Below are positions 5,239-59,600 of a DNA stretch of 64,000 nt, one piece after another (within the stretch, counting starts at the first letter, position 1; the number at the start of each line of letters is the position of its first letter). The stretch spans positions 5,926,784-5,990,783 of the forward strand of contig NC_049987.1 of the NCBI RefSeq assembly GCF_000003815.2, written 5' to 3'. This DNA is from Branchiostoma floridae. Lineage: Eukaryota; Chordata; Leptocardii; Amphioxiformes; Branchiostomatidae. The notes under the pieces are model-generated. The model saw only the letters and a program-made list of their open reading frames with translations, was not told the origin of the DNA and did not search any database. Made by a program: the position numbers and the translations under genes.

Positions 5239-8200
5239 ATGAAAGCCATGTCCTGCTGTGTGCCACTTCTGATCGGCCTCTTCTGCTGTCTGTGGAGCAG
5301 TGGGCAGGTTGGCGCAACACTTGAGGGGTAAGTTGGTCGTTTTTATGAACACTACAAACTAAATGTAGATTTATTTACCACACCATTTGAGAATAGCATA
5401 TTTCACGGCCAGGTATGCTCACACGAAGGGAACCTCATCAGCACCTTCATATTATGACACGTAATAGTAGTTTGGGTATTACCATCGTTAGAAAACTGTA
5501 AGCGTATCTATGACGTACACATTGCAAATGTGAAAATTACTATTTACCAAAGGCACACATACTTAATTTGTTTGTTCAAGCAAAGACAACACATTACGTT
5601 TTAAAAAGCCCAGTAGAATGACAAGACCCTACCGATCCGGATTACGTTAACTATGGTCTTCAGTATGCTACAGTCACATGTGTATAGTCACATCAGAGTT
5701 GCACTGGCACAAAAAGTTCATCAAGTAGAACTTACTCTTTAAGTCATATTTCAATTTGATACGAGACAATTGATATTCAAATATGAGAACACATATATAA
5801 TTGAAAGCTTGGAGAACATCTAGCTCAGAAAATGAAGTAATGAAAACACGGGATCGCTATTAAGTGTGAAACACCGGTTGGCAATATATGTAACATATGA
5901 TTTTACATGTATACAGAACACAGGTCTATACAAGTCTCCTACTACAAGTCGAGACACAAATCACTCACTCACTCACGGCCCGTAACCTCAGTGGTCGTAG
6001 GGGCTCCACAACATCCGGTAGCAGTGATAATTATTATCAGACACAAATATTACAAGTCATATTCTATACATACAAGATCACACAATTGCGAGCTAATCCA
6101 GCTGCGAAGAAGATGTTTTCAGGTTGGAAATTTAGATGCAATTATATACTTTTATTCAATTTTGACAGGGCTGGTTTGAAAGTTGAAATTTGAACAAAGT
6201 TGATTTTCACAAAACTGCAGATAGTATTGTCTTATCATATGGATCTTATCTGACTGAAACTTTGTAACTTACTTTGGGTCACTTGGTCTGATCTGACAAT
6301 GTTCCTGATAATGGAAACCAGTGCAGAATATTTTAATCTTGTGACCAGTATTATGCTAATTTGTCCCTGGCCGTTGCTTTTCGCTGGTAGGATGTGTACG
6401 AGTTTATTTGGGTATAGGGGTCAGTCCACCATTCAAACTGCTGGACAAGTCACAATGGGAGCACTTCCTTACTGCTCTTGCCCTGGGTAAGATTTTCATT
6501 CCTTTAAACTTTGTGGTTCACCTGCAGACTAGCTCAGTTATAGCAGTATGTGCTATCCAAATTACTATTCCGACTAGCATGCGAAAACCTCAGTTTCCAT
6601 TGATTCTCATTAGACTACGTATAGGAACACTGATATCTGAAGTTATCGCTTGGTACTAAGGCAGCAGAAAAGTCACTCGCGATCGTGGGCAAGAAAAGGC
6701 TTGGGACTATTAATGATTCCATGTAACGTTAGAGGGATCTAGTGGATGATTTTAGTCGGCAAAAACCAAAGCGTAATAAGCAATACTGGGAGACATTAAG
6801 AAAAAAAAAACTTTCAAGTTAAGTATTTCACGGTAATGGTTATGATACGAAAGCTCATTCTTTTGTTTGATATATCCTGCTGAGCATACTCACGGTGTAC
6901 TAGACGTATAGGGGTAAGCCAGATACGACGACACAATAGACAGGTGTCAGGTAAACGTTTTAGTGCCCTGAATGACCCTTCATCATTCATCACCGTTTGG
7001 CTTCTGTGTGGAACGTGGCTTTCGTGACGGTATGTGCTTACTTAGTGTGTTCAATTTGAAGACTGTAACAGTAAACACGGAAACGGGGCGAGTTAGCCAC
7101 GATGTAGTGTGTACAGTAAATACACTGCCTGGCTATACAACCTTAATCATTGAAAAGATGGTGGGACATTTGTTATAAGGTTTACGTACATGTTTTAGAC
7201 AAGAAGATCTCTTGGCATGTTGTAACAGAAGTATACTTGACATACATACGTATGGTGAGAGCTAGGTTTCTTTTACTTTAATCAAGCATAAGGCTACGTA
7301 TCCTGGAGGAAGGATGTTTTCACACAGCGGCTTGTGAGGTGGCATGTGATTTTTAATACATTTTTCTTAACAGTCCACCGGGTAGTTTGTGCCGCAACGT
7401 TACTGTGAGCTACCAGATAGAGGAGCGTCGAAAAAGACATCCTGCAACTGATGTGTGGACATATGTCAGCGAGATATTGACTAACAGGTATTCGTTTATC
7501 CTTAAGTTTGTTGTGAAAATTAGCTTACCGTTAACTCAGTTCCCGTATTATATTCGGTAAAAAAATTACATGTAATGTTTACTTGTCAAACTTGTCAAAC
7601 CTGATCCTTACAAACCATGACAAGGTATATTACACGAGAATGAGGAAAGTAAATGACGCGAAGGCATGTCATAGCCAGAGCTACATTGTATGTCCGATTT
7701 GGTTATAATTTCAGGCATGGAAAAGTCCGCAGGGGTATTCAAACCGTGTACGAAACACGCTATGAAACCATTGAGGAATGTTGCCATGGATGGGCTCGTG
7801 TGGGGGATACATGCACAGGTACGTGTAACATCATCGTCTATAAAAGAAACCGTCGCTAATGCTTTCGCACATCAAGCTGGTATTGAATACCTTGGTAGTA
7901 TCTGAACATTGTAAAGTAGAAAAAGAAACTATTACATTCCCTTATTTACAATTAAGAAAATAAAAAAATTCATATGCATGAAATATCATTGATTGATTAA
8001 TTTTTCGTCTAAATAAGAAAAGTATTACATTTTTGGTGATTGTTAAAAGGTATCACATATATGTTACCCACCTTACATGCTAGCGACCTGTTCTGAGACC
8101 TGTGGTGACCATGGCAGCTGTACTGCACCCGACACCTGCACATGTGATACAGGCTACACCGGCAGACTCTGCAATGAAGGTAATAACTTAGATAGACGGT

Positions 8201-29100: not shown

Positions 29101-29403
29101 CCCGCCCCTTCCACTTGTGTGGTAAATTTTAATAAACAAATAAACAGATGTTAGATGGGAAAATAACAACATTCCTAGCTTGGCTGTCCATGTGTCTCTA
29201 TTCTTAGTGCAATAGTGTCTTAGTTTGATGTTCTGCAGTTTATTTCGTTATTTGCGGGAAAAGGAAAACAAGTGATACTGACAACCTTTTTTTTATCTTG
29301 TCACAGGATCCAGTCAAAGGTATCAGACTTGCCCAGGGGTGAACAATTTCAGGAGCCCCGCGAAAAGGACATCCAAGCCGTAGACAGTCCTACGAGTTGG
29401 TAG
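5239..29403 (+). CDS. Gene B: MUC4-like transmembrane protein, EMI-EGF-VWA-NIDO-AMOP-VWD-EGF-TM
   Basis: Thirty-two exons: 5239-5327, 7374-7487, 7715-7818, 8084-8179, 8316-8435, 8659-9216, 9658-9792, 9973-10083, 10385-10515, 10738-11005, 11107-11210, 11502-11595, 11786-11926, 12383-12566, 12796-13015, 13330-13489, 13743-13883, 14195-14303, 14929-15070, 15407-15572, 15734-16000, 16269-16608, 16708-16907, 17184-17309, 17486-17605, 17840-17977, 18334-18459, 18687-18812, 18994-19112, 19541-19653, 28577-28966, 29307-29403. They sum to 5,349 nt (1,782 aa plus stop) and all phases join. The NIDO-AMOP-VWD-EGF-TM order is that of vertebrate MUC4; EMI and VWA are added at the front and no mucin tandem repeat is present. 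A type I cell-surface protein is inferred, probably adhesive. The short tail has no tyrosine. Gene E is a close paralogue. The start ATG at 5239 is followed by a strong hydrophobic signal peptide. Confidence 0.87.
5328..7373 (+). other. Gene B intron 1, no recognised feature
   Basis: A 2-kb AT-rich intron with short repeats such as ACTCACTCACTC near 5960. The ORFs in it lack domain signatures and splice continuity. Nothing further is recognised. Confidence 0.6.
7374..7818 (+). other. Gene B exons 2-3: EMI domain
   Basis: Exons 7374-7487 and 7715-7818 join in phase 2. The N-terminal half begins with PPGSLC; the C-terminal half ends [13 protein letters not shown], matching the CC-x-GW-x4-C end of EMI domains in emilins, multimerins, MEGF10 and Draper. 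EMI domains support protein-protein contact and multimerisation. Gene E has the same two-exon split at 42490-42627 and 43033-43127. Confidence 0.8.
8084..8435 (+). other. Gene B exons 4-5: EGF and calcium-binding EGF
   Basis: Exon 8084-8179 encodes one EGF module with six Cys ([10 protein letters not shown] end). Exon 8316-8435 encodes a cbEGF starting DLDEC with the calcium-binding pattern and a CSCDDGY core. Both exons are symmetrical phase 1-1, the classic shufflable unit. Confidence 0.88.
8659..9216 (+). other. Gene B exon 6: von Willebrand factor A domain
   Basis: One 558-nt phase 1-1 exon encodes a whole VWA module, about residues 175-360. The MIDAS metal site is intact: DGSGS near the start, a Thr in [10 protein letters not shown], and the Asp in VVTDGQ. 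It should bind a divalent cation and possibly a ligand, as in integrins, matrilins and collagens. Gene E has no VWA at the matching place, so the exon was gained in B or lost in E. Confidence 0.92.
9658..10083 (+). other. Gene B exons 7-8: two calcium-binding EGF modules
   Basis: Exon 9658-9792 starts with VDEC and has CTCNDGY; exon 9973-10083 starts DIDEC and is slightly short with a CTCPGY core. Both phase 1-1. The first is most similar to the gene E module at 55209-55340 (shared CAQNCHN.HGSY). Confidence 0.88.
10385..11926 (+). other. Gene B exons 9-13: NIDO domain
   Basis: Exons 10385-10515, 10738-11005, 11107-11210, 11502-11595 and 11786-11926 encode a nidogen-type NIDO domain, about residues 443-690. 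Diagnostic stretches are [38 protein letters not shown] and [15 protein letters not shown] occurs in nidogen, alpha-tectorin, MUC4 and SNED1. The 268-nt exon 10 corresponds to two exons in gene E. Confidence 0.88.
12383..13489 (+). other. Gene B exons 14-16: AMOP domain
   Basis: Exons 12383-12566, 12796-13015 and 13330-13489. The NIDO end (IWTFAL) runs into an AMOP domain: C-x2-[18 protein letters not shown], and CCVKSAG...WYCQRF. AMOP occurs in MUC4, SUSD2 and ISM1 and is associated with adhesion. Exon 15 is unusually Arg-rich, as in the gene E counterpart at 61113-61341. Confidence 0.85.
13743..16000 (+). other. Gene B exons 17-21: VWD domain with intact GDPH
   Basis: Exons 13743-13883, 14195-14303, 14929-15070, 15407-15572 and 15734-16000. 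The start reads [11 protein letters not shown]...YTFNGMGEY, then [17 protein letters not shown] and FSDPDM. The GDPH at 13760-13771 is the autoproteolytic site described in MUC4, MUC2 and MUC5AC. Intron 18 (14304-14928) carries a SINE and is missing from gene E. Confidence 0.88.
14391..14737 (+). mobile_element. SINE-like element with (TAAA)n tail
   Basis: A compact non-coding unit in gene B intron 18. It ends GGGCTCCCTTGGAAATCAGT, then ...GGACTACCCTAAAGA and a TAAATAAATAAA tail. The same end, in the same order, closes the LINE fragment at 26465-26967 (26889-26967). A SINE borrowing the tail of its partner LINE is the simplest reading. Imperfect copies of about 45 bp flank it (14328-14375 and 14750-14797). 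Confidence 0.65.
16013..16107 (+). repeat. (CA)n and (GATA)n microsatellites
   Basis: A run of about 27 CA units from 16013 to about 16067 is followed by TAGATAGATAGATA units to 16107, just inside gene B intron 21. Apparent ORFs through it are low complexity. Confidence 0.95.
16269..16907 (+). other. Gene B exons 22-23: Ig-like region and EGF modules
   Basis: Exon 16269-16608 begins with a beta-rich stretch ([18 protein letters not shown]) that may be an Ig- or cadherin-like fold, then starts a Cys-rich motif CSCFNGGYC. Exon 16708-16907 completes an EGF ([12 protein letters not shown]) and adds a second with [12 protein letters not shown]. Such EGFs follow VWD in MUC4-like proteins. The fold of the first part is uncertain. 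Confidence 0.6.
17184..18812 (+). other. Gene B exons 24-28: five EGF/cbEGF modules
   Basis: Five phase 1-1 exons: 17184-17309 (DIDEC), 17486-17605 (DINEC), 17840-17977 (EGF-like, no DxDEC start), 18334-18459 (DKDEC) and 18687-18812 (DIDEC). Tandem cbEGFs form a stiff calcium-dependent rod, here placed between the VWD region and the membrane. Confidence 0.88.
19241..19495. mobile_element. pogo/Tigger-type MITE interrupted by CR1-like tail
   Basis: Starts TACAGTAGAAGCAGCTTAAT and ends GGTTTCTACAATA, with inner GTGCAATTAACAGAAGTGTG. It matches the two copies at 56650-57041. CAGT...ACTG-like ends next to TA fit the pogo/Tigger pattern. It is split at about 19297-19380 by an antisense LINE 3' tail (GAATGAATGAATGACCTTTA). 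Confidence 0.6.
19297..19380 (-). mobile_element. Antisense CR1-like LINE 3' tail
   Basis: On the minus strand it reads ...GTACAATAAAGGTCATTCATTCATTC, a LINE 3' end with a short tandem tail. Related copies lie at 22735-23105 and 25498-25900 (shared AAGTACAGGTC on the + strand). It sits inside the MITE at 19241-19495. Confidence 0.6.
19753..19907 (+). repeat. 155-bp direct repeat, left copy
   Basis: From GACCGGGTTTCGCGTCG to GCCGGAGAGGTCGG. By eye identical over all 155 bp to 27424-27578, with flanks diverging at once on both sides. It does not begin TG and end CA, so it is not a textbook LTR. An ACCTTTTATACGCC stretch is TATA-like. Confidence 0.85.
20365..21050 (+). repeat. Diverged tandem repeat, period about 60-90 bp
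   Basis: About seven to nine degenerate copies of a unit with TTTGGCGAATGGTTTGCTCG, then GGTTTGATATGGTGGCCACA and a purine tract of AAGAAGAAG type. Unit starts are visible near 20370, 20454, 20514, 20692, 20771, 20870 and 21013. Long minus-strand readings here are simple-repeat artefacts. Confidence 0.7.
21225..21530 (+). mobile_element. Retroelement fragment, first copy
   Basis: Shares two collinear blocks with 23960-24300: GGGCTGACCTTGGTTGG and GGTCAGCCTTGGGACGGCTC / GGTCAGCCGTGGGATGATTC, both followed by CCAACC...GTGCAGGA. They look like copies of the 5' or gag-like part of one retroelement. Copy two leads into a reverse transcriptase remnant. Confidence 0.5.
21610..22320 (+). mobile_element. 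LINE fragment (CR1-like), end of RT and C-terminal region
   Basis: Conceptual translation shows [25 protein letters not shown], a degenerate LYKSLV...[31 protein letters not shown] and [10 protein letters not shown]. This succession is typical of the C-terminal part of CR1/jockey-type ORF2. Several stops and frameshifts break it, so it is a dead fragment. Confidence 0.75.
22470..22660 (+). mobile_element. LINE reverse transcriptase fragment
   Basis: Translation gives [20 protein letters not shown], corresponding to the GVPQGSVLGPLLF...YINDLP motif before the RT active site in non-LTR elements. It lies downstream of a piece that should follow it, so it is a separate insertion or rearranged. 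Confidence 0.7.
22735..23181 (-). mobile_element. Antisense CR1-like 3' region next to poly(A) run
   Basis: 22735-23105 is homologous to 25498-25900: shared AAGTACAGGTC, then a collinear CTTCT..TTGGT..TTG and CATCTTCTAC. On the minus strand it ends in AATAAATGA and ATTCATTC, a LINE tail. A 28-base A run at 23154-23181 follows, an independent feature on the + strand. Confidence 0.55.
23960..25080 (+). mobile_element. Degenerate DIRS-like retrotransposon reverse transcriptase
   Basis: Translated pieces include [48 protein letters not shown] and [15 protein letters not shown]. They align with the DLKSGYHHI-x-IHPE, GF-x-W and LPFGLSTAP-type motifs of DIRS and related tyrosine-recombinase retrotransposons. 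Key residues are altered and frames are broken. No recombinase was found, so the class is tentative; other LTR-type RTs remain possible. Confidence 0.55.
25161..25397 (-). mobile_element. LINE reverse transcriptase fragment, minus strand
   Basis: Minus-strand translation has [18 protein letters not shown] and [11 protein letters not shown], matching the non-LTR RT motif PxxWKxAxVxPLPK...NYRPISLLSVLSK. It breaks off after this motif. Confidence 0.7.
25498..25900 (-). mobile_element. Antisense CR1-like 3' region, second copy
   Basis: Collinear with 22735-23105 and with the tail at 19297-19380. It begins on the + strand with TTGAATGAAGAATTTTATGG and GGGCTAAGTACAGGTC, has CATCTTCTAC near 25845 and an A-rich run near 25865. 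Confidence 0.5.
26465..26967 (+). mobile_element. LINE 3' end: ORF2 C-terminus and tail
   Basis: The ORF 26465-26662 ends in [26 protein letters not shown] and [12 protein letters not shown], the recurrent C-terminus of CR1/jockey-like ORF2 (YNTR...QRSF..R...WNSLP...FK..L). The 3' UTR ends GGGCTCCCTTGGAAATCAGT...GGGACTACCCTGAAAGA and a TTAATAAATAAATA tail, shared with the SINE at 14391-14737. Confidence 0.72.
27424..27578 (+). repeat. 155-bp direct repeat, right copy
   Basis: Identical by eye to 19753-19907, same strand, 7,671 bp away start to start. Flanks differ on both sides and no target-site duplication is obvious. The interval between them contains many broken retroelements. Confidence 0.85.
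27579..28576 (+). other. End of gene B intron 30, no gene recognised
   Basis: ORFs at 27768-28292 (minus) and 28029-28356 (plus) have no domain signature. A GGAGGTAGCTGGG motif occurs at 27580 and 28044, suggesting internal duplication of an unclassified repeat. Confidence 0.4.
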
Positions 29404-30324: not shown

Positions 30325-30593
30325 AGCCAGTGCACACTCTGTTGCGCAACCCGTAATGAGGCCACATTGATGCTATGCACACCTTACAATAGCTTGTGGT
30401 GTAGGCTTACCTCAACAACAAATGACGTTGCTCTGTCAGGGACTTCTGTCTGCGCCACACGAGGAAGTAACAGCGTACACGGCCACACTTGCCGCTACCC
30501 TGCACACAGGCAACCACCTTTCGTGCGGCCGGACTTACGTTAACGTCTGTTCAAGGAAGACATACAGTAGCTCGAGAGATCGTTACTGGCACC
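30325..30593 (+). promoter_or_regulatory. Conserved 5' flank of gene C
   Basis: Aligns with 35325-35571 before gene D: shared CTGCGCCA-ACGAGGAAGTA, TACAATAG-x5-TGGTGTA, CTTAC-TCAACAACAA and GTTCAAGGAAGA. As duplicated 5' UTR or promoter it may give the two genes similar expression. No clear TATA box was identified. Confidence 0.5.
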
Positions 30594-33500
30594 ATGAAGA
30601 AAGGTGTCTTCGCTGTTTACTGTGTCTTCCTCCTTGTAATCTTGGCTGTTGGTCACACGTCGGCGCTTACCGGGTGAGTAGTTTAGTCGAGACTTTATTA
30701 CATGTAAGTGTGTCTAAAGAAAATGCACCGATGTTCTTTAGCTACTACTAGGTACTACGAAGTCTTCTCTGAACTTCAGCCGAGTGCTCAGTCAAAATAC
30801 AGGTATACTTATTGTTTAGCAAGATTCAGGGATACTTGTCCATACCATTCAAACTATACTAGTGGCGGTAATGTTTTGGCTGAAACGATGGCGTAGAACT
30901 GAAACGTACTTTATTGAAAGATTGTGTACTAAATTGTTGGGTACTTTTCCAGAAAGCCGGGCAGCGTATGCGGCCCCCATTGTTGCGCAGGGTGGGACCA
31001 AGTTGGGGACACCTGCCAGCGTAAGTGTGACAAGCACAATCTAAACCACATTAATCATTTTGCTGCCTATTTTTCTTCTTCTTTTTTTTTGACGAATTCG
31101 TCAGCTTCAATGAGGTAACGGAATCATTCCCTGGAGTGTCCATGTAGTAATGTATGTCAGTGGCACCTGTAAACAAGCAACAAACCACCAACCTAGAACA
31201 AAAGTGTCAGAGTTCAAATAAAATGTAGCAATGTATTCACATTTTATTCGATATTCCTACACTACTTAAAGTGTGAACGTACAAGCAACTTTCTAAAACC
31301 TCTCATGTGAGGATGCTGTCACATTCGTTGTGGAACGTCGCACGACTTTGAATTCGAATAATTTTTATGCAGGCTTAACCAACCACTAGCAGTGTTGACC
31401 TAAGGAAGCATTTTTCCGTATAAGGAGCTGAATTTTGTCCGCCACATGCACGGTTGTCCGAAGATATACTATGTAACTTGCTATTCTTTATTTCAGCTCA
31501 TTGCTACCACCCATGTGAACACGGAACCTGTGTAGACACAAACGTCTGCGAGTGTGATCCTGGGTGGGAAGGAGCAGACTGTAGGCACGGTAAGATTGTT
31601 CTTTAATGACCCATGTAAGACATTTAAGCAAGCAAACAAACGGAAAGAAAAGAGGACTCCCATGTTCCGTCCAGGGGAAACCATTTTTAGAGGAAGACTT
31701 CCTTCTTGACAAGAGGCCTTTATTTGAGGAGCATTGTCTCTCTTTAAGAACAAAATCCTTTTTACCTAAAAGGAGGAAGTCTTCTTGAAACCAATGACGT
31801 TGTTTTTGTATTGCTAGATGATTTAGAAGGCAGGTAAACAGCCAACTTCCCCACCATAGGAACATTGGCATGGACACCCACTCCATTGTCAAATAATACT
31901 TTGAACGGGCAAAAAATATGGAAGGTCACAGAGTGCTTAATTAGTTTTCGATAGAATATATAAATCTGAAATGATATTCAATCTCCTTCCAAAGATATAT
32001 GTTTATCAATATCCATACTGCGATTTTAAGCAGTAAAATACTTTCGAAAATAGCATCCATAGTTGTCAAAAAATTATCAAAACGCATGAGGCATATGCCG
32101 GATTTTTGCTCCATGTTGATAAAATCTACTATCCAGATGGGCAAACAGTTACAAATGACATTGTAAAATATAGCTTTAGTTAACTATTTCTCTCTGTCAA
32201 TCAGTCTAAAGACAGTTGGACTTAGTTGAGCATTGGACAATTGAAGTACAAATCAACAGATAAATTCTTGATATTTTTCCAGATATTGACGAGTGCTGGT
32301 ACGGTCAACACGCCTGCCACCACAATTGTCATAACCACGAAGGCTGCTACACCTGTTTCTGTGACGACGGCTTCCAGCTCATCAACTCTACACACTGCGT
32401 CGCCTCTAACGGTAATACAACAGTTGAGCCTCCGCTGATGACAACCGCCAGTGATTCACTCTGTGTCACCACCATAGCAGCAACTGTGGGCACGGCAACA
32501 GCGACGGCGAACCCACAACAGACAACCACCAGGACAACTACAAGCGGTATACGTAACACAGCCCTAACGACAGCAGCTGACGTTACAACAGCAAGGCGAC
32601 CACAGATAGCCACCAGCACCGCAGCACCACAAACAAGCTCCACAGCACCAACAACTGCAGTTGACGTTACAACAACAAGACGATCGCAGGACGTTACAAC
32701 AGATGGTCAACAGAGAGCCACCAGGACCACATCTAGAGGGTTACACATAAGTTCCACAACCACAACAACAAGAGCAGCCTTAACATCAGCTAGACGAATA
32801 CAAAGAACTACGAGGGCCACAGCCAGCAGTTTACACACAAGTTTCATTGCCACAACAACAACAACAACAGCCCGCATTACAACAGCAAAACGACCACTGA
32901 TGAGGACCACTCGGACTACAGGTAGATATTCACGTAACGGCCCTATCTTATCCTTATCCATGTTTTTGTTTTTCCTTTATGTGAAGACATAATTCGCACC
33001 TGTTGATGCTACATTTTAGAGGAATAATTTTTTCCTTTCTTCAAGAAGCACCAGGCCGACGTCACATGACCCTGTCTGCCACCGGTCCCATTGTGCAAGA
33101 CAATCGCAAAAGCCCAGGTAAGTGCTATGCAATATTCTTTACAATGATCGCCTCTTTTCTCTTCCATCGGTTTACGCCAAAACCGTTTGCAGGCTATTGT
33201 TGAAGTATAATTTGGTTTGAACATTTGCTAAAAGATTTGTTGACGAAATGCCACACATCTGATAACGTCCCATGTACCTTACAGCTCCACGGGCAAGGAC
33301 AGACCACCAAAATGTCGACCAGGCGATCGGGGGTGCAGTCGGCGCGTTGGCCCTGTTACTCCTGCTCGTCTCCCTTGGGGTTCTGGCCTTCTGCATGAGG
33401 AGGAAGAAGGCAGCGGCCCGCCAAGACCGACTATTCTCAAACCTTCCACAGCAGCCTCGTGGCTCCCTCCCCGGCTACAGCGACACGCACTGGCGGAATC

Positions 33501-33823
33501 CCGCCTTTGAGAACCTGTACGAAGAGATTCCCGAAGCGCGTAGCCCGCCACCCCCGTATGAGGCAACAGAGGCCTGTGGAGCTACAGGGGGCTTTGCGGA
33601 TGTAGCCGCAATGTCCAAGGGTGGAATAACAGATAGGAATAACGTTGATATGTCGTTGGCAGGCACCATCCCTGCGATTCCCAGTAAGGCACTGAAAGAG
33701 ATGTCGCCCCCACTTTGTAACTTGCATGTGAATATTCAGAAAGAACCACTAGCGGACGATCACGGGTATGAACCGCTGAAGAAGGTTCCTGGGAATGAGT
33801 ATGAGAGCCTGAAGCGCTGGTGA
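30594..33823 (+). CDS. Gene C: compact EMI-remnant/EGF receptor with mucin stalk and ITAM-like tail
   Basis: Exons 30594-30673, 30953-31020, 31497-31589, 32283-32921, 33046-33117, 33285-33823: 1,491 nt, 496 aa, all phases join. Order: signal peptide (MKKGVFAVYCVFLLVI), a cut-down EMI end (GSVCGPHCCAGWDQVGDTCQ), one EGF, one cbEGF (DIDECWYG), a Thr/Ser-rich stalk of about 180 residues, a helix at about 332-354 (GALALLLLLVSLGVLAF) followed by RRKK, and a tail of about 140 residues. The tail has YEEI at 396-399, PPPPY at 405-409 and YEPL-x7-YESL at 479-493, which fits the ITAM consensus. EMI plus EGF plus ITAM is the plan of Draper and MEGF10 engulfment receptors, so a signalling surface receptor is inferred; ligand unknown. 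It is a tandem duplicate of gene D. Confidence 0.87.
33285..33823 (+). other. Gene C last exon: transmembrane helix and signalling tail
   Basis: One exon holds the whole TM and tail. Motif positions: YEEI 33518-33529, PPPPY ending at 33559, YEPL 33767-33778, YESL 33800-33811, stop 33821-33823. YxxL-x7-YxxL is recruited by tandem-SH2 kinases such as Syk when phosphorylated; pYEEI is the optimal Src SH2 ligand; PPxY binds WW domains such as those of Nedd4. These are family rules; phosphorylation here is not shown. Confidence 0.75.
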
Positions 33824-35089: not shown

Positions 35090-35325
35090 ACAATTCAAAA
35101 ACACGAACACACACAAAACAATGCCTTATTTTTTTTATGGAGGTAACGAAAGCACCTTCACACATAGCAGGTCACAAAGAGTGCACAAGCCGTTGCGAAA
35201 CTCATAGTAATGCACGAACACAAAGACTCACACACACACAAACAATACCTTCTTTTTCCATTGAGGTAACAAAAGCACTTTTACATTCAAGAGGTCACAA
35301 CCATTGCGTGTGTCGTTGCGCAACT
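35090..35325 (+). repeat. Local tandem duplication, about 115 bp, upstream of gene D
   Basis: Two adjacent blocks share AACAAT.CCTT, GAGGTAAC.AAAGCAC and AGGTCACAA, then CGTTGCG.AAC. A related GTTGCGCAAC occurs upstream of gene C at about 30342. It may be a duplicated upstream element of the C/D pair. Confidence 0.5.
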
Positions 35326-35571
35326 TTTGATAAGGCCTCGGTTACCATATGGACGCCATACAATAGTGTATGGTGTAAGCTTACTTCAACAACAAGTTAC
35401 GTTGGTCCGGCTAAAAATTTCGTCTGCGCCATACGAGGAAGTAGCAGTGTGTGCGACAACACCAAGGGTTACAAAACACTTTGACAACCATTGCTCAAGT
35501 GCGGCTGGACCTTATTTCGTTCAAGGAAGAGACATTTCCTTCCTGCAGATACACAGATCGTCCCTGACACC
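35326..35571 (+). promoter_or_regulatory. Conserved 5' flank of gene D
   Basis: Counterpart of 30325-30593, with the same short conserved blocks and order, ending ACACCATGAC at the start codon. Probably 5' UTR and proximal promoter. Confidence 0.5.
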
Positions 35572-38105
35572 ATGACAAAAGACGGTTTCAGCGTTGTTTA
35601 TGGTGTCGCCCTGCTTGTTGTTGTCGTGTCTTTTGATAATACGTCGGCTCTGTCTGGGTGAGTAGCACATGCACAGTTTTCTGAAGTGTGGTTGGTGTAT
35701 GTAGGCTTTGTGTCTATATACCGTGTAGTACTGTTCTCTAGTCGGTGCTTGGTACGATGTAGTCTTCTCTAAACACCAGAGAGTGATTAGTGAATGTAGT
35801 GTTTACAGGGTTCAAGGGGGCTGTGCTTTCGAAACTGTTTCACTGTCACTGACATACAGGAATTGAACTTCATTTATAGCTTATATGGGCTTAACTATTC
35901 GCTACTGTTCGTTCTAGACCATCGGGCAGCGTATGCGGTAGCCAGTGTTGCGCCGGATGGGACCAAGTTGGCGACACCTGCCAGCGTAAGTTTTGTTCAT
36001 GTATTCATGTTCATATGTTCATGTTCATGTGTTCATGTCCATGTGATCAAGTTCATGTGTTCATGTTCATATTTTCATGTTCATGTCTTCATGTTCATGT
36101 TCTTGTGTTTGTTGTCATATTCATGTGTACATGTTCATATGCATGTTTTATGTCAACGTTCATGTGTAATGTTCATGTGTTCATGTTCATAAGTAAGCAA
36201 GCCTGCTTCCGACACTGGACTAAACGTCATTCCAGTAATTTTGGATTCTGTCTATATTTTCGAACAATTCGTCAGTTTCAACGAACTAACAGAATCAGTC
36301 CTGTTACAGTGTTGGTGTACAGTTATGTAAGGAGGGTGGGGTTTACCTTATATCCATGGCACCTGTACACAAGCAACGAACCACCAACCTAGAACAGACA
36401 GGGCCCTATTCAAATAAGATGCAGCATTGTCCCCGTATAATTGTTATTCCAAACTAGAAGGTGGTGTAAATATATCCTCATAAAACTATTATGTAAGTAA
36501 TGTGCTACTCCTTATTTCAGACCATTGCTATAACCCATGTGTTCACGGCACATGTGAAGACACAAATGTCTGCAAGTGTGATCCTGGGTGGGAAGGACAC
36601 GACTGTAGCCACGGTAAGATGTGTAACGCTTTTCCACTTTAAAGAACAAAAACGTTTAACCACAAAAGAGGAAGTATTCTTGAAACAAATGACGTTGTTG
36701 CACTAGATGCTTTAGAAGAAAGTGAAATAACTTCCCCTCCATAGGAACACTTCGTCTTTGAGGACCCAATCCATTGTTAGATATTACTTTGTATAGTCAG
36801 AAAAAGTGTTTAGCTGATTCTTGATGAAAGAAAATGTTAAAGACATCAATTCTATCTACATCCATACTGTCATACAAAATGTAAGCCGTGAAGTACCTTC
36901 GAAAATAGCATGAAAATGATATTGGAAAATTCTGGTAGAAAACAACCAGGCAGCTGACTTCTTGACACTTTCCCCAGATGTTGACGAGTGTTGGTACGGA
37001 ACCCACGTCTGCCACCACAATTGTTCGAACCACGAAGGCTGCTACACCTGTGTCTGTGCCGTCGGCTTCCAGCTCATCAACTCTACACACTGCGTCAGCT
37101 CTACAGTATCTAACATCAACGGTACAACGGCAGGTACTCCACTGAGTCCCACCGTGAGTGATTCACTCTGCGCCACCACCGCAGCATCAAATGTGGGCAG
37201 GACAACAACAAACCCACTACAGACAACCACCAGGACTGAAGACGGCCGCGACGTTACAACAACTAGAACTCTGCCTGTTACAAGTCCCGTTGTACACGAC
37301 AACGACAGAAGCCCAGGTTAGTTCTATAAGATAAACATTTTGTTGATTAACTCTTGTGTTCTGTCAGTCTCGTCCATTAGGATTGATTCACGTAAGCCAA
37401 ACCCATTAGAAAACTGTCGTTAGAATATAGTTGACTGTTTGCACAATAAGGGATCAAGAATAGCTTAAACATCATTTATGTCTTAATATACTTCGTTGTA
37501 TCTCTTTTGATTTTTATTGATTCTGAAGCTTCGATTGGCAAAGAGACATTGTCATCAACTGCATTGGCGAAATGCTACAATGATTGGGTTTGTTTTAGTG
37601 TTAACAAAGGTTTAAACAAATATTTTTATCTGAATGGCAACGCGTTCTGTGTCTTACAGCTCCAAGGGGAAAAGCAGACCACCACAACGTCGACATGGTG
37701 GTCGGAGTGGCGGTCAGCGCGGTGGCCCTGGTACTCTTGTTTGTCTCCATCGGGATTTTTATCCGGTACAAGAAGAAGAAGGTAGCAACCCGCCAAGAAC
37801 AGTTCAATCGTCCACAGCAACCTCGTGACTCCTTTCCCGGCTACAGCGACACGTACTGGCGAAACCCCGACTTCGCAGCCCTTCACGAAGAAACGCCCGG
37901 CACGCGTAGTCCACCGCCCCCGTATGAGGCAACCGGGGGTCTTGTGGCTTTAGCTGAAATCTCCAAGAGTGGAATCCACCATAAGAATGTTGTAGGCGTT
38001 GCAATTGACGGTGTACCTGCAATTGCGAGTAATTGTCAAGATAACGGTATTAAACCACCGAAGAAAGTTCCTGAAAATGAGTATGAGGGCTTGAAGCGCT
38101 GGTGA
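35572..38105 (+). CDS. Gene D: paralogue of gene C with degraded tail motifs
   Basis: Exons 35572-35657, 35918-35985, 36521-36613, 36978-37316, 37660-38105: 1,032 nt, 343 aa, phases join. Signal peptide, EMI remnant (GSVCGSQCCAGWDQVGDTCQ), EGF, cbEGF (DVDECWYG), a Thr-rich stalk of about 70 residues (much shorter than in C), helix at about 208-230 (VAVSAVALVLLFVSIGIF), basic anchor, and a tail of about 110 residues. The tail keeps SPPPPYEAT and a final EYEGLKRW, but C's YEEI is HEET and the first YxxL is missing (KPPKKV). One intron of gene C, near the end of the stalk, has no counterpart. Same ligand class as C is likely; output probably differs. Confidence 0.87.
35996..36192 (+). repeat. 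Minisatellite of TTCATG units in gene D intron 2
   Basis: About 30 imperfect 6-bp units (TTCATG with GTGTTCATG variants). The Cys/Val/Phe-rich ORF read through it is an artefact. Gene C intron 2 has no such array. Confidence 0.9.
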
Positions 38106-39974: not shown

Positions 39975-42900
39975 ATGGGCAAGTTGCTGCTTGTTGTGTC
40001 GCTGCTACTTGTTTGTTTCGCCTACTTCGCATCGGCTCAAGTTCCTCTTCGTGGGTGAGTACATGTTTCTGTTGCACTTCTTACTTTTTTTGTACTCTCC
40101 GAGCAGAGGTTTGGTACCGTTTTTCTCATGTCTGCCGACCGCAGATAGCAAAATAGTAAGCCCGACAATACGCCTAAAACACGTAATAAAACAGCCGAAG
40201 CCTAACCTCTGCTAAGAGAGTACTTCTTGTGCTTCTACCTTGACATGGGCTCTCTTTTACGAATAGTTAAGTTCTAGATATTTTTCAAAGTTATTTCCTA
40301 GATCACGAGTCACACTTTAAGCCATTAATCGTTCTCTTATGAACTTTGCTGTAAGTGTAACCACGGTGCCCAATGCATCTCTCTTTTTTTCGTTCTGCCG
40401 CATATTGCCACTTCGGTAGTTTTTAATATACCCCGTGGATACAAACAACCCATACAAACAACCACTAAACTGACAGGAACTGAACTGAAAAATAACAGTC
40501 GAGTAAGAAAAGTCAACCTGATCGATACGATTTGATGTGGCTTGTACTTGGTCAGGAACTTGCATGGCCTTTCATTACACTTTGTGTTTAATCTAGTTCC
40601 TTATTCTCGTTTTTCATATGACACACATGGTGTGGTTGGCGTCAACTGTACTCTGTAGTAGGTATTCAATGCTCGATATCTTTGATACATATTGTGCCAT
40701 CGGTCCCGAACATGGGCATCTTGGTACATACAAAAGTACAATATAGTAGAATTCCGCAAACGTAAACGCGGTGAAGTAAGTATAACTGGGGCAGACGTAA
40801 AATGACAGCCACCCTACCGTAGGGTGCAATCGTGTGGTTGCCCCTTGTCTGAAGCCATCGACTACACCTGCTCGGTGGCCGTGACCATGCATGGAAAGTT
40901 GTTGTCATGTAAACAAGTGAAAGACCAAGATAAACTAAAGCCACCCCCAGCTTAGAATGATTAGGGTAACTTTTTCGAAGCAACTTAATCTAGCTCTTCT
41001 ACCGCAGGAAGTTTCGTATAGGTGCGTCGGATAAGGAAATTGCGAAATGCTTACGATGACCTGTCTGTTTGTTCGGAGGTGTTTACCCTCTTTTGAAGTT
41101 CATCTGTCTGATAAGCTTTGTGAGGGCAAATTACTTCCCTGTTATACACGTCATACGATAGGCGAATTGGGGATATTTCTGTGACTGTTTTACACTGTCA
41201 ATGACCTTTGCAGTCGACTTTGCTGATTGCAAGATGACCGAATCTAAAAATTGTCAGGATGTATTTTTCGCCTGAATATTACTCTATTATATTGTCATTT
41301 AGCGGGTCTCGGTGTACTGCTAATACGGATATCGTAAAATCACAAAGACTGATAAAAACGTAGGACGCAATGCTCACAAAAATATCCTTCGTAGCTTCCA
41401 GACTCATGCTACGGTCACATTCTCAAGTTTGTGCGAATTTACTGCTGTGTGACAGATGCGCATTAATGACGTTCATAGATTAACTCAAATATTTTGACAT
41501 TTAAGTCATGCAGGTGTGTCAGGACTATAGATGGAACGATCTTGGTTCATGCTGAAAGCCCTTTCTTAAGTTGAACAAACAACGTGAACAGTTCCTCTTT
41601 CTACTGATTGTGCTACCACAGCTGAAAACATGTTGACATTCAAAATGTCAAAACTATTTGAGTGTCTTTTTTTGTTTTGCGGCATTGAATGCATTTCACA
41701 ATCCAATGTTCTTTCAAATTCTCAAAGTGTCTATTACTAAAAAAGGCAGTCTTTGGCAAGTGTACCAGATATGACAACAAGTAGTGAGTTCCTCTTTCGA
41801 GTTTTATTACTTCCAATTCATGCCGAAGGCAACGTTTTATGGCCAAACTTTGTTATTCGCACGTTCGCATCAGTTTTGGAGTTTCCAAGGATGCCAAACA
41901 TATAATCAAATGGCCTAATGAAGTTAAGATGCATCATAACCAATTAATGTCCCATGTGCAACACTGACGACGCATTTAAATGCTGTTGTAAATCTGCATA
42001 CGACGTCAGACTGGCATGGGACGCTCTACCACCACCTTCACCTTTTAACTAACCCGCAGAAACATTGCGCAATACATGATGTAACTCAACAAAAGCGCCC
42101 TCGCGCGACTCACAGATTATCTGCAGGACGAACTGGAAAGCATGGAGCCGGAAAGTTAAGACCGAGCACTTGCACTTGCGTAGCAAAAATATATGACTTA
42201 ATTACGCAAAAGCTGTACAGGGTACAAAACATGGCATCTACCGATACATAACTACAGTTCTATAAGGCGCTAATCTACTTAATATCAGGGTACATTATAT
42301 AGGATGAAAATTGACTTTCACCATCATTCTCCGGAGGGATTTCTTTAATATATTTTCCTATGTATACCATACAGGGGTTGTCACATGTCATAATGTATGT
42401 AACGTTTACTATCTAAGTACTAGTCCATTGACGTAAATCCCGGTATGTAAGATTATAGCCTTCCAAAATATATACCTTTGTATCCACAGGCCGGATGGAT
42501 CCGTATGCACACGTCAGGAGTCACGAATCGTGATGTACACTGTTGAGAACAGGAGGAAACGGGAACCTTCATCCGGGGTCTGGGACTACCTGAGGATGTG
42601 GGACGTCTTCGGGATTAAAAAGGCCAGGTGTGCAACATTATGTGCAGTCTGAGTAGTGTCATAATTACAACCATGTCATAACTGCAAAACAATCATTTGT
42701 GTGGAAATTTCCTCATGGACAAATGTAAAATTTTGGTGATACAAGTTTCTTGGCCGGAAGAATATTCAAATCAGTTTTGCTAATGACTAGCGAAACCACT
42801 ACATGTGAAATTACTAGGCTGGTTATCTATAATATGATAACTTAAGTCCATACCCCCAAAAGTTTAATATACATGTACCTCCTCAGTCATCAATCGTTTC

Positions 42901-44592
42901 CCCTTCTTGTTGTATACGTGAAAGTTTATCCTTCGAGTGGCTTTTGCTGAACATCCGAAGTCGTTGGTATCATCAACCTGCCAGTGACTTCTGCCTATAT
43001 TTACGTCTCTTACAATCTGATTTGTCGGATAGAAACCCCCGAAGTTTTCGGACTGTCTACGCCATTGAGTACTTCACTAACTACACGTGCTGCGCCGGTT
43101 GGAACAGGATCAACGATACTTGTCAGGGTAAGAACTGAACTTATGTTTTGTCGTTTTATCTAGAGTTGCCAAGTTCATTCATACGTAATGAAGTATGTAA
43201 TTGTTATGGGTTACAGCTTTCAGCCACTTATGCATTTCCTGACTTAACCATTACAAAGGCATTTGTAACATTTCTACTTGATATAATACGTGCTTCATGT
43301 CTTAGAACTGGGGATGACAGCTTCTTTGAAATATGCGACATACTGGATCTAGAGTTCCACGAACACATACCTTTGCCAAATAAACCAGGTTTGTTATGTA
43401 GAATGATGTCTGTAGACATAAATTTGTCACTCATTACATTTTATTTTATATGCCTGGAGTTGGTTCATAAAATTTCGCCATTGATTATACAAATTAGATC
43501 CCTATTTACACTATTAATATCAAATTGTATCAAGCATCACTTAAGCTATCAGCATACCAAAAATCATGATGATCCTTTCATTCTTGATTTATTGTCTTTC
43601 AAAGTCTGAAACAAAACCGGCATCTGCAGTTCAAGAAAAGACATTATAGGGGACCCAAACATACACCACTTACTCTCTGCCATCTTTCTCAACTACATGC
43701 AGTGGATCTATCGACTTTCCTCATCAATTATGCAAATTAGCTATTAATTGGTATCTCATTATGTAAGTTTTTACTTAGGCTATCTACATACCAAAAATCA
43801 TGACGATCCGTCAACACGTTCATATTTTCCATTAATTATGCAAATGAGATCACCATTTGCATAATTAATATGTATTGACATTTCTTTTTCTCAGCTACAA
43901 ATGTGACATGTTTGAAAGTCCTATAATGGAATGCAGTAGATTTACAAACTTTCCTCATTAATTATGCAAATTAGCTGTCGATTTGCATAATTCGAATTCC
44001 ATCATGTAAGTCTTCCCTTTGGCTATCTACATACCAAAAATCATGACGATCCGTCAACACATTCATATTTTCTCATTAATTATGCAAATGAGGTCAATTG
44101 CATAATTAATATGCGTTGATATTTTTCTCTTTCTCATCTAAATATGTGACAAGTTTGAAAGTCCTATCATGAAATGCAGTGGATTTATAAACTTTCCTCA
44201 TTAATTATGCAAATTAGCTGTTGATTTGAATAATTAGTATTCCATTATGTACATTGTTACTTGGGCTATCTACATGCCAAAAATCATGACGATCCTTCTA
44301 CACGTTCCCGAGTTATTCTCCTCCAAAGTTTGAAAGGAAATCGGCGGCTGCAGTTCCAAACAAGCCGTTAGGGGGTCAAAACTTACAGCACTTACTCTCT
44401 GCCCCAAGGGCTATTTACCATTTAAACATCACGACCACAACATGTCCAGAACATGAGATATAAAAAATTGAGTTCTGCTGCAGTACCTTAGCAAGCCGCT
44501 AGGGAGCCCATTATCGAACTTGACCTTCGTTTTCCCAACCCCTACCCACCTACCAAATATTATCGGGATCCATCCGAGGCTTCTTGAGTTAT

Positions 44593-56600: not shown

Positions 56601-59600
56601 GTACACGTAGACCTTGCACAAACCAAGCAATCCTGCGATGTAGCTTACTGCCTTCAGATACAGTAGAAGCCGTTTGATAGCACACCGTATTTGTCAGCGT
56701 GTTTCGTGCAATTACCCAGGTGGTGCAAAAATGTGAAGTCATCCAGCTGAATCGCACCGGTTTGGAATTTTGAAATGCCATGCAATTAACAAAAGTGTGT
56801 GGTAATCCGGTGTGCATTTATCTGGTTTCTACTGTATAATCACATAGACATAGAGAGGCACAGATTTCCATGATACAGAAGAAGCCAGATAAACGGACAA
56901 CGGATTACCACACACTTCTGTTAATTGCACGGAATGTCAAAATCCCAAACGCTGGATAACGTCGCATTGTTGCACCACCCAGATAATTGCACGAAACACA
57001 TTGGCAAACACAGTGTGCAATTAAACGGCTTCTACTGTACCTTAAAATGGGCAGTTTAAAGGATATCCTCTTCGTTTACAGATCTGTGACAACGGCATCG
57101 TCAGCTTTGACCGGATCAACCGCCCGCGGGACCCGGCATTGATACAGAACACCTTCGCCTTCCGCAAGACTGCCGTTCTTGCTCCTTTCCTGGCCAGGTC
57201 CGACGCTTCGCGTAAGTAATTACACATTATACTGTAAACATGATACAGCGAATACAAAATTTAACGTCTATGGTTTGATTACATTTAAAACAAAGTACAC
57301 TCAATTAAAGTCAAACAAGCTCAGAAGAGTGTAGTAGTTTATTTATATTATGTTGTGTCATGTCAAAGTTTCTTGTAGACGAAAGATGAAAGTGTACATG
57401 TCATTTCCAACACTTAAGATTTAGACCTATCATAATTAGACTCCTTCCATGCAACAGAGATACATATTCAGTCAGAACTTCTCAAAACAATCGTCATGGA
57501 AATTCTTATCTCATCATCTCATCTATGCCTTATATCAGTCTAATTATTCGACCATTGGGGCACCACAGAGGATCTGGCAGCAAGTTTAGCCACCCCTCTC
57601 GGTTTTCTGTTATTCGTAGTATTTCACTTAGTTTCATACCTGGCCATTCTCTGACATCGTCCTCCCAATCTGTTGTCCATCCCCCTTTCTTCCTCCCTCT
57701 CCGGTTCCCTCTATGATATTTTTGGCTGGTCCATATGACCGTGACACGTGGTCGTACCACTTCACAGTTTTCTTTTCTGGAAAAGTACATAACAGACATT
57801 ATCTTTCGGACCATGATGCCTGCGATTGATTGATTGACTGCTTGATTAATTGATTGTGCAGTGCTAGACACTCTTCCCGAGGATGAGAGGACGAAGATCT
57901 ACTACAGCTTCTACGAGAGAGGCGACGGGAACCCCGCAACGGACGAGGTGCTACAGAAGGCACGGGACGACGGGAGATCAACCCCTGGGTACTATTCTCC
58001 AGGTAAGCAACAATCATCATGATGTACTGTAAACAATGTTCGTGACCGAGTGCATGGTAACTAAAATTACACATTTTACATGTAAGGGCACTCAAAGACG
58101 CGTAAAGGGTGGAAAATACTCGTAATGGGCCACACATGCATGTTGTGTAGACCAATATCTGATTGAGCTTCCAGAGAGGCAAGAGACTTGAATGACCATT
58201 GTGTACAAAATCTAAATCTGACATATATATCAACGGTCTTTCAATGACCGTCCAACTATATCAAACGTCTTTCAATGACATATGAATAATCTTTAAGGTC
58301 TTCAAAAGATGATAATAATAGTAATATCTCATAATCTCGATGGCCAGTGATTTTTAGTTGTTCATTTGTTGCCTGGGCGTCCTGAGAAAATGGGGTTTAT
58401 TATTTCATGTTAAAGTAGACAAAACCATGATGTTAAATCTGATTTTTCTTTTCTTTTCATAGCCTATGATCCAGTGTGGGCGTTTGTAGTGACATGGACG
58501 AGGGTTCCCCCAGACTGCAGCATGTATGGCGGCGGAGTGTGTCCGCTACCACACGACCAGCTCCCGGTAAGCTCTAGCTCATGTTCAGTACTGTGCGACG
58601 GAGTCACTTTTATCTGTATCAGATTCTGCACCTGTATCTGTATGGCCAGTAAAGCCGCCGGCCCTTTGACATGGAGTATCAGATTCTGTGTCTTTTTAGT
58701 CGATATAGGCACCCTTCGGCGTGGCACACAAGCTTATGTGCTTCTCAAGGACGCGTCGCGGCAGCAGCTTGTTGTATTACACTGGACTTTCACACTTAAA
58801 CCTTTGTACAATCTCGCTGTAAGCGTTGTTTAAACTATCAAGTGGTGATGCCCATACTGTACTTGGTGGCAACGAATACCATCATTGCCCTACAGGTTGA
58901 CAGGTTTTCGGACTCAAGTACTTAGTACTCAAGAACTTGAATATATGGTTTTATTATTTTCAGGTGAATGATTTTCAACTGGCCATATCGACCAACGGGA
59001 CCCACTCCTACGCTACGTTCGTTTATCCCACAATGAAACAAGAGTGGGTCAGTACGGGTAAGAAGTTTATCCCTTTATATGTACACTATTGTAGTTGTCT
59101 GTAATATATAGAAACGATATTTTGTGTCATTAAACAGTTGCTCAAAGTAATGAAACTAAATACTAGTACTTCCTATTACATCAAGTCATCAATCATAGAT
59201 AGGGAACATGGTCTTGATTTCTGCCATTGAACTTAAACACAACTAAGCATATGTGTGCACTTTTCAATTGTACAATGCCATTTATACAAAACCTCAATAT
59301 CAAGCCTTCACTATACTATCATTAAAACTGGGCAATGTACCTTACTTCCAGACGAAGCACGGGACGGCGGTCGTCGGAAATGCCCAAAAGCTGACGGGAC
59401 AGTTGCTGTTGGAGGCTACAGTGCCGGTGACGGGACGGGTCCCTATCCTTACACCCCTGCCACCAACGCCAGTCTGGTGTTCAGAAATAGGGACTTCTCC
59501 GGGAAGGATTGTGTCGGACGGAGATTTCCCAGACCGACACAGGTGTCGATGAGGAATTTGTGGTATAATAACGGCGGTAAGTTACAGTCATTTTGACATC

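Follow-up and report, generated by a model that had tools for sequence, protein, structure and literature searches.

A tandem pair of predicted mucin-like membrane receptors in Branchiostoma floridae, one of which carries an ITAM pattern in its cytoplasmic tail

Gene C and its tandem paralogue D

The window, i.e., the whole stretch of 64,000 nucleotides that was analyzed, contains a gene, C, which was modelled from the sequence alone as six exons encoding 496 amino acids, its five introns all being GT-AG (all features of C and D given below lie on the plus strand). Exon 1 (30594-30673) encodes the signal peptide MKKGVFAVYCVFLLVILAVGHTSALTG and ends in phase 2 with a GT donor, and exon 2 (30953-31020) encodes an EMI remnant, KPGSVCGPHCCAGWDQVGDTCQ, recognized by alignment with the two-exon EMI-like modules of related genes. 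An EGF domain is encoded by exon 3 (31497-31589; Pfam EGF_2 1e-4, EGF_PEAR1L 5.3e-5, the latter below its cut-off). Exon 4 (32283-32921) encodes a calcium-binding EGF domain starting with DIDECWYG (Pfam EGF_CA 2.8e-6) and most of a Thr-rich stalk, the end of which is placed by the GT-AG model on exon 5 (33046-33117). This stalk is 195 aa long, Ser and Thr making up 38.5% of it. Finally, exon 6 (33285-33823, stop codon at 33821-33823) encodes the juxtamembrane segment, the transmembrane helix and the entire cytoplasmic tail of 142 residues. The helix (residues 336-354, 33338-33394) has a mean Kyte-Doolittle value of 2.74 over 19 residues and is directly followed by MRRKK, so that C would be a type-I protein whose tail motifs are cytoplasmic. 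A poly(A)-type signal (AATAAA/ATTAAA type) occurs 164 nt past the stop codon. The small receptor gene of 496 aa put forward in the preliminary description therefore holds as a coherent six-exon model of a type-I membrane protein, with EMI remnant, EGF, EGF_CA and Thr-rich stalk. In a PDB search, the head of C matched EGF proteins generally (44 sequences at E ≤ 0.01), the best being NELL2 (2.7e-11). Within the stalk (window 32504-32899), a 49-nt unit recurs four times in divergent form (67-82% alike), its copies being spaced by 84-114 nt; D has none of them.

Gene D, which was absent from the preliminary description, is a tandem paralogue of C. It starts about 1.7 kb downstream of the end of C, spans 35572-38105 and encodes 343 aa through exons that are collinear with those of C: a signal peptide (exon 1, 35572-35657), an EMI remnant (exon 2, 35918-35985), an EGF domain (exon 3, 36521-36613; Pfam EGF_2 9e-4, below cut-off), a calcium-binding EGF domain followed by a short stalk of 71 aa (exon 4, 36978-37316; Pfam EGF_CA 7.5e-7), and the transmembrane helix and tail (exon 5, 37660-38105, stop codon at 38103-38105). 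D lacks a counterpart of intron 4 of C (32922-33045). Upstream of the two genes, stretches of 148 nt (30341-30488 for C, 35315-35462 for D) are 73% identical and possibly represent a shared promoter region. Besides, a tandem array of 14-nt repeats of the GTTCATGT type runs from the donor of D exon 2 (window 35981-36154).

An ITAM pattern in the tail of C and its counterpart in D

The preliminary description had reported YEPL-KKVPGNE-YESL at the end of gene C. Translation of 33767-33811 yielded exactly this sequence in frame, YEPLKKVPGNEYESL, in which the two YxxL (YEPL at 33767-33778 and YESL at 33800-33811) are seven residues apart. As had also been claimed, the tail fits YxxL/I-x(6-8)-YxxL/I, behind a transmembrane helix and a basic stop-transfer sequence. 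An acidic residue occupies position -3 of the first Tyr (D-H-G-Y), and KRW and the stop codon directly follow the motif. As it stands in the gene model, the ITAM pattern of C is formally perfect. Its chance rate was estimated in two ways. When the 142-aa tail was shuffled (n = 100,000), the motif with a spacing of 6-8 was found in 0.47% of the sequences and that with a spacing of 6-12 in 1.1%. Among the ORFs of ≥50 aa in all six frames of the window, the pattern occurred four times in 39,996 residues, that of C being counted, i.e., 0.014 per 142 aa; the three further ORFs are raw ORFs as to their gene status. At 0.5-1.4% per tail of this size, the motif is hence uncommon in one given tail and expected in some tails genome-wide.

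Further upstream, the tail of C contains the NPxF motif WRNPAF (33491-33508; WRNPDF in D), a third YxxI/L, YEEI (33518-33529), which is not conserved (HEET in D), and PPPY, a PPxY motif within RSPPPPYE (33548-33559), identical in D. Codon alignment showed that the counterpart of YEPL in D is IKPP (38049-38060), C reading GGG TAT GAA CCG CTG AAG (GYEPLK) and D reading GGT ATT AAA CCA CCG AAG (GIKPPK). The Tyr of YEEI being a His in D, only the last of the three YxxI/L of C is kept there, as YEGL-KRW-stop (YEGL at 38082-38093), and KKVPxNEYExLKRW-stop is common to both tails. The preliminary description had named the loss of either Tyr or of the spacing in orthologues as evidence against the motif. 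In D, the one homologue with such a tail, the first Tyr is missing, so that the pair of Tyr and their spacing are not kept, although D is a paralogue and not an orthologue.

The difference between Tyr and Ile could be due to a one-base deletion together with a nearby one-base insertion, or to substitutions. The pattern may be a coincidence, the C-terminal YxxL being conserved for trafficking and the upstream YxxL having arisen in C, unselected, by a few base changes. Such an origin would take little, since the codons of C and D are only a handful of substitutions apart, or one deletion, one insertion and two or three substitutions, and the same pattern turned up in the three other raw ORFs of the window. 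However, the 142-aa tail of C contains as many as three YxxI/L, the Asp at -3, the spacing of seven and the C-terminal context fit an ITAM well, and D could instead be the copy that lost the first YxxL. We regard a coincidence as a serious though tentative explanation, to which we give less than even weight.

The two tails were further compared by their substitution rates. For the tail, dN was 0.264 and dS 0.758, giving a ratio of 0.35 (112 codons), as compared with 0.43 for the whole protein (337 codons) and 0.34 for the last 22 codons. According to these ratios, the tail as a whole is under constraint. Identical blocks of at least four residues are PQQPR, PGYSDT, WRNP, RSPPPPYE, ATGG, KKVP, NEYE and LKRW, and both copies hold NPxF, PPxY and the C-terminal YxxL (YExLKRW); with the tail known from two sequences, the conservation of such short motifs is weakly resolved. 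Odd domain combinations in lancelets often result from gene-prediction errors, according to one study (PMC4967905). This warning is countered here by the fact that the models of C and D are collinear and constrained.

Search for further copies of the tail

The tails were then compared with the genome of the animal itself (own assembly, 513 Mb, 431 contigs), in which the window lies at C9:5926784-5990783. With the C tail as query, two matches were obtained at E ≤ 0.001, C and D themselves. With the D tail at E ≤ 10, 12 candidates gave 13 matches. One was D and two were pieces of C, and only these three were convincing; the best of the remaining ten had an E of 0.06. Eight of these ten fell on one stretch of the query, and the five that were fetched proved to be a single repeated sequence, which was rejected as a transmembrane tail in spite of an E of 6e-5 in a small database. 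A degenerate DNA pattern for EYExLKRW matched the genome exactly twice, in C and in D, and its reversed control gave 0 matches. The C tail was also not found at E ≤ 0.01 in nine fetched loci (83,985 bases), the contents of which are given below. Overall, no third copy of the tail was detected in the 513-Mb genome at the sensitivity used, which a strongly diverged copy could escape. As D lacks the first YxxL and no third copy was found, C is the only available copy with the ITAM; the first YxxL may have been either gained in C or lost in D. D further matched TMEM154, though weakly and below the cut-off (0.0042).

Origin of the head

C and D are flanked by two large genes. Gene A (provisionally window ~5200-29403) contains EMI-like exons (7375-7473 and 7716-7817), EGF and EGF_CA domains, VWA (1.6e-51), VWD (2.4e-7), NIDO (1.2e-23 with stitched exons) and a weak AMOP match (0.044, below cut-off). 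It also has a further EGF_CA and a transmembrane exon with a short tail that ends near 29403. Gene E has a similar plan, starts at ~39970 and leaves the window beyond 64000. Its signal peptide is encoded near 40 kb, its EMI-like exons lie at 42488 and 43034, and its EGFs begin at 54.3 kb. Comparison with A revealed NIDO-like pieces in the stretch 57082-57980 (1.3e-9 and 4e-6), and a VWD match below cut-off (0.0013) was obtained near 62.3 kb. Between its second EMI-like exon and its first EGF exon, tandem repeats of ~243 nt, 64-88% alike, were observed (window 43455-44315).

In the relatives, the EMI-like module is split over two exons, and exon 2 of C resembles the head of this module joined to its tail. 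Indeed, exon 2 of C and D consists of the start of the first EMI exon (PxGSVC) joined to the end of the second (CCAGWDQVGDTCQ), the core being missing, so that the remnant of C keeps the stub with the first Cys and the CCxGW...C end. The splice phases at the ends of exon 2 of C (2 and 1) agree with those of gene E, the latter being judged by eye. Pfam gave no EMI match in C or D at E ≤ 1. Among six stitched EMI-like modules of relatives, three matched Pfam EMI below cut-off (0.0062, 0.027 and 0.079), each over the C-terminal end of the profile, and three gave none; when the stitched modules of A and E were searched together with their EGFs, no EMI was obtained at E ≤ 1. The EMI-derived N-terminus claimed in the preliminary description is therefore likely, both ends of the two-exon module of the relatives being kept, but it does not amount to a Pfam EMI domain. 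A complete EMI domain in C was rejected, as even the longer relatives gave only weak Pfam EMI matches, below cut-off.

Of the flanking genes, E matches C best, with 62% identity over EGF1 and 53% over the first EGF_CA, and the same two domains of C also match other EMI-like-EGF genes of the genome, several of them with NIDO pieces. A head query made of EMI remnant, EGF and EGF_CA gave 82 matches among the best 150 of 1,483 candidates, mostly generic EGF_CA exons. In the nine fetched loci mentioned above (83,985 bases), EMI-like pieces were found in L033, L035, L039, L040 and L041, EGF pieces in L033, L035, L038, L040 and L041 with one more in L037, and NIDO-like pieces in L038, L040 and L041; L038 and L039 are neighbours on one contig, and neither L034 nor L036 had EMI-like, EGF or NIDO-like pieces. 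NIDO, AMOP and VWD are absent from C and D according to Pfam. The N-terminal modules (EMI-like ends, EGF1 and EGF_CA) are thus common to C, D and the flanking NIDO-type genes, a sharing that defines local genes and not MUC4 at large. From this, we infer that the head of C and D derives from partial duplication of a flanking NIDO-type gene.

Comparison with known receptors

The preliminary description had ascribed to C the plan of Draper/CED-1/MEGF10. Like these receptors, C and D are predicted to be type-I proteins with an EMI-related N-terminus, EGF modules and a tail combining NPx-aromatic and YxxL motifs. According to PMC8092387, Draper and MEGF10 have an ITAM and NPxY, and CED-1 has a single YxxL and NPxY; by its tail, C would thus resemble Draper and MEGF10, with two YxxL in ITAM register, and D would resemble CED-1, with one. 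A reduced member of this family could account for the EMI remnant and EGF head and for a tail in which NPxF and YxxL recall NPxY and ITAM/YxxL, and the EGF_PEAR1L profile, weak over exon 3, matched the isolated head of C at 5.9e-7, likewise below its cut-off. In contrast to the family, however, C and D have only the ends of an EMI module, with no Pfam EMI match, and one EGF and one EGF_CA domain without a series of EGF/NIM repeats. They have a Thr-rich stalk, NPxF instead of NPxY, and PPPPY; D has a single YxxL, the first one of C being absent from it, and those relatives of the head that were examined in the genome are of the EMI-like-EGF type, NIDO pieces occurring in several of them. Failing both on the EMI domain and on the repeat series, membership of C was rejected; kinship with Draper is not supported by these comparisons, and we consider it very improbable. 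The ITAM and NPXY functions of Draper are separable, as stated in PMC4503800, which would fit the idea that one part of a tail varies while the other stays.

C and D share EGFs, EMI-like ends, a mucin-like stalk and a membrane tether with MUC4-type NIDO-AMOP-VWD mucins, represented here by the flanking genes A and E with their EMI-like modules. Unlike them, they lack NIDO, AMOP and VWD, and no other place in the genome yielded their tail at the sensitivity used. EGFL7 and EGFL8 are secreted EMI-EGF-EGF_CA proteins with a complete EMI domain. Compared by module order, C and D follow the same EMI-EGF-EGF_CA succession, but they are predicted to be membrane anchored and their EMI is incomplete. 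FcR gamma, DAP12 and CD3 zeta are classical ITAM subunits. C resembles them in its YxxL-x7-YxxL near the C-terminus with an acidic residue before the first Tyr, but differs in having neither Ig nor charged-transmembrane assembly, a predicted ligand-binding head and the motif being carried by one chain.

Putative function of the tails and candidate reader proteins

The functions of NPxF, PPxY and YxxPhi motifs are well established. On balance, we lean toward C and D being a pair of membrane mucins derived from the MUC4 family, with a tail serving adaptor binding or trafficking. This reading is drawn from two complete collinear gene models, a constrained tail, identical tail blocks and the matches of the head to EMI-like-EGF-NIDO genes. 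In this model, a large EMI-like-EGF-NIDO-type gene would have been partially duplicated to give the head, and C and D would be tandem duplicates of a small single-pass mucin-like receptor, the EGF head of which would bind a ligand beyond the glycosylated stalk. A function common to both tails would be carried by the motifs that both copies hold: WRNPxF could recruit a PTB-domain adaptor or act in endocytic sorting, PPPPY could bind WW-domain proteins, e.g., ubiquitin ligases of the Nedd4 type, and YExL-KRW at the C-terminus could act as an endocytic YxxPhi signal (AP-2) or as a single-YxxL, hemITAM-like phospho-site. Against this reading, NPxF is not the canonical NPxY, and the same picture would be expected if selection had preserved a full ITAM only in C. 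The weakly resolved conservation of motifs known from two sequences and the absence of EMI matches from the modules of A and E with their EGFs also weigh against it.

Besides, an adaptor or trafficking role and a working ITAM in C are not mutually exclusive. If Src-family kinases phosphorylated both YxxL of C, a tandem-SH2 kinase of the Syk/Shark type would be recruited, and the single YxxL of D would recruit none, or would do so only as a dimer; C may thus additionally dock such a kinase, as a candidate function. Taken further, C would be a true ITAM receptor, in which docking of Syk/Shark allows the EGF head to trigger engulfment or activation, D being its single-YxxL partner or decoy. The spacing of seven, the acidic residue at -3, the C-terminal position and the extra YEEI in the same tail speak for it. 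So do published descriptions of SFK-ITAM-Syk signalling in invertebrates, with Draper and Shark (PMC4503800), of Syk-family kinases from sponges to primates (PMC9601881), and of an amphioxus Lck together with a Tyr-based inhibitory LRR receptor (PMC8211107). A 2017 amphioxus paper refers to homologues of Zap70, Lck and slp76 as not reported there earlier (PMC5431462). However, the first YxxL is missing from D, the only homologue found, and the pattern has the chance rate per tail given above. Candidate readers were also sought in the genome: SH2 places gave 60 matches (81 of 81 candidates scored) and kinase places gave 141 among the best 134 of 1,264 candidates scored, long-frame kinases filling the scored list. 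From these 60 SH2 places and best 134 kinase candidates, it was not possible to resolve a kinase linked to two SH2 domains, and hence a Syk/Shark gene. A true ITAM receptor appears less likely than not to us.

At the level of the gene model, the motif is real and the receptor coherent; with one half of it missing from D, the motif is a specialisation confined to one copy or else coincidental. That C is a lineage-specific ITAM receptor, evolved independently out of a MUC4-like cluster and accompanied by D as a natural half-ITAM twin, seems unlikely on present sequence grounds; if true, the pair would allow the gain or decay of an ITAM to be followed. As C and D are nearly the same protein, they allow a tail with an ITAM to be compared directly with one that has a single YxxL. 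Should the motif of C work, the animal would have an ITAM receptor related neither in its head nor in its tail to Ig-type ITAM subunits or to Draper, which would illustrate how easily an activation motif originates on a membrane mucin. Should it fail, it would be a useful warning that ~1% of tails of this size carry an ITAM pattern by chance and that homologues are needed before naming. The preliminary description knew of no lancelet receptor combining EMI remnant, mucin stalk and ITAM. This is in line with the open-licence literature, where no such receptor and no described lancelet ITAM receptor were found among the matches listed, and where amphioxus EMI domain gave no match; a paper on an amphioxus phagocytic LRR receptor likewise makes no mention of an ITAM (PMC10199209).

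Two further observations were made during the search for reader proteins. An SH2 sequence lies on the minus strand of locus L044 (G000:C14:10583500-10590500) and could be a reader of single-YxxL or ITIM-like tails; it resembles SHP-2. In addition, protein tyrosine-kinase matches were found on contigs C1, C7, C8 and C12, many of them in long uninterrupted frames of ~900 aa that are closely arrayed in tandem, as if intronless kinase genes had expanded.
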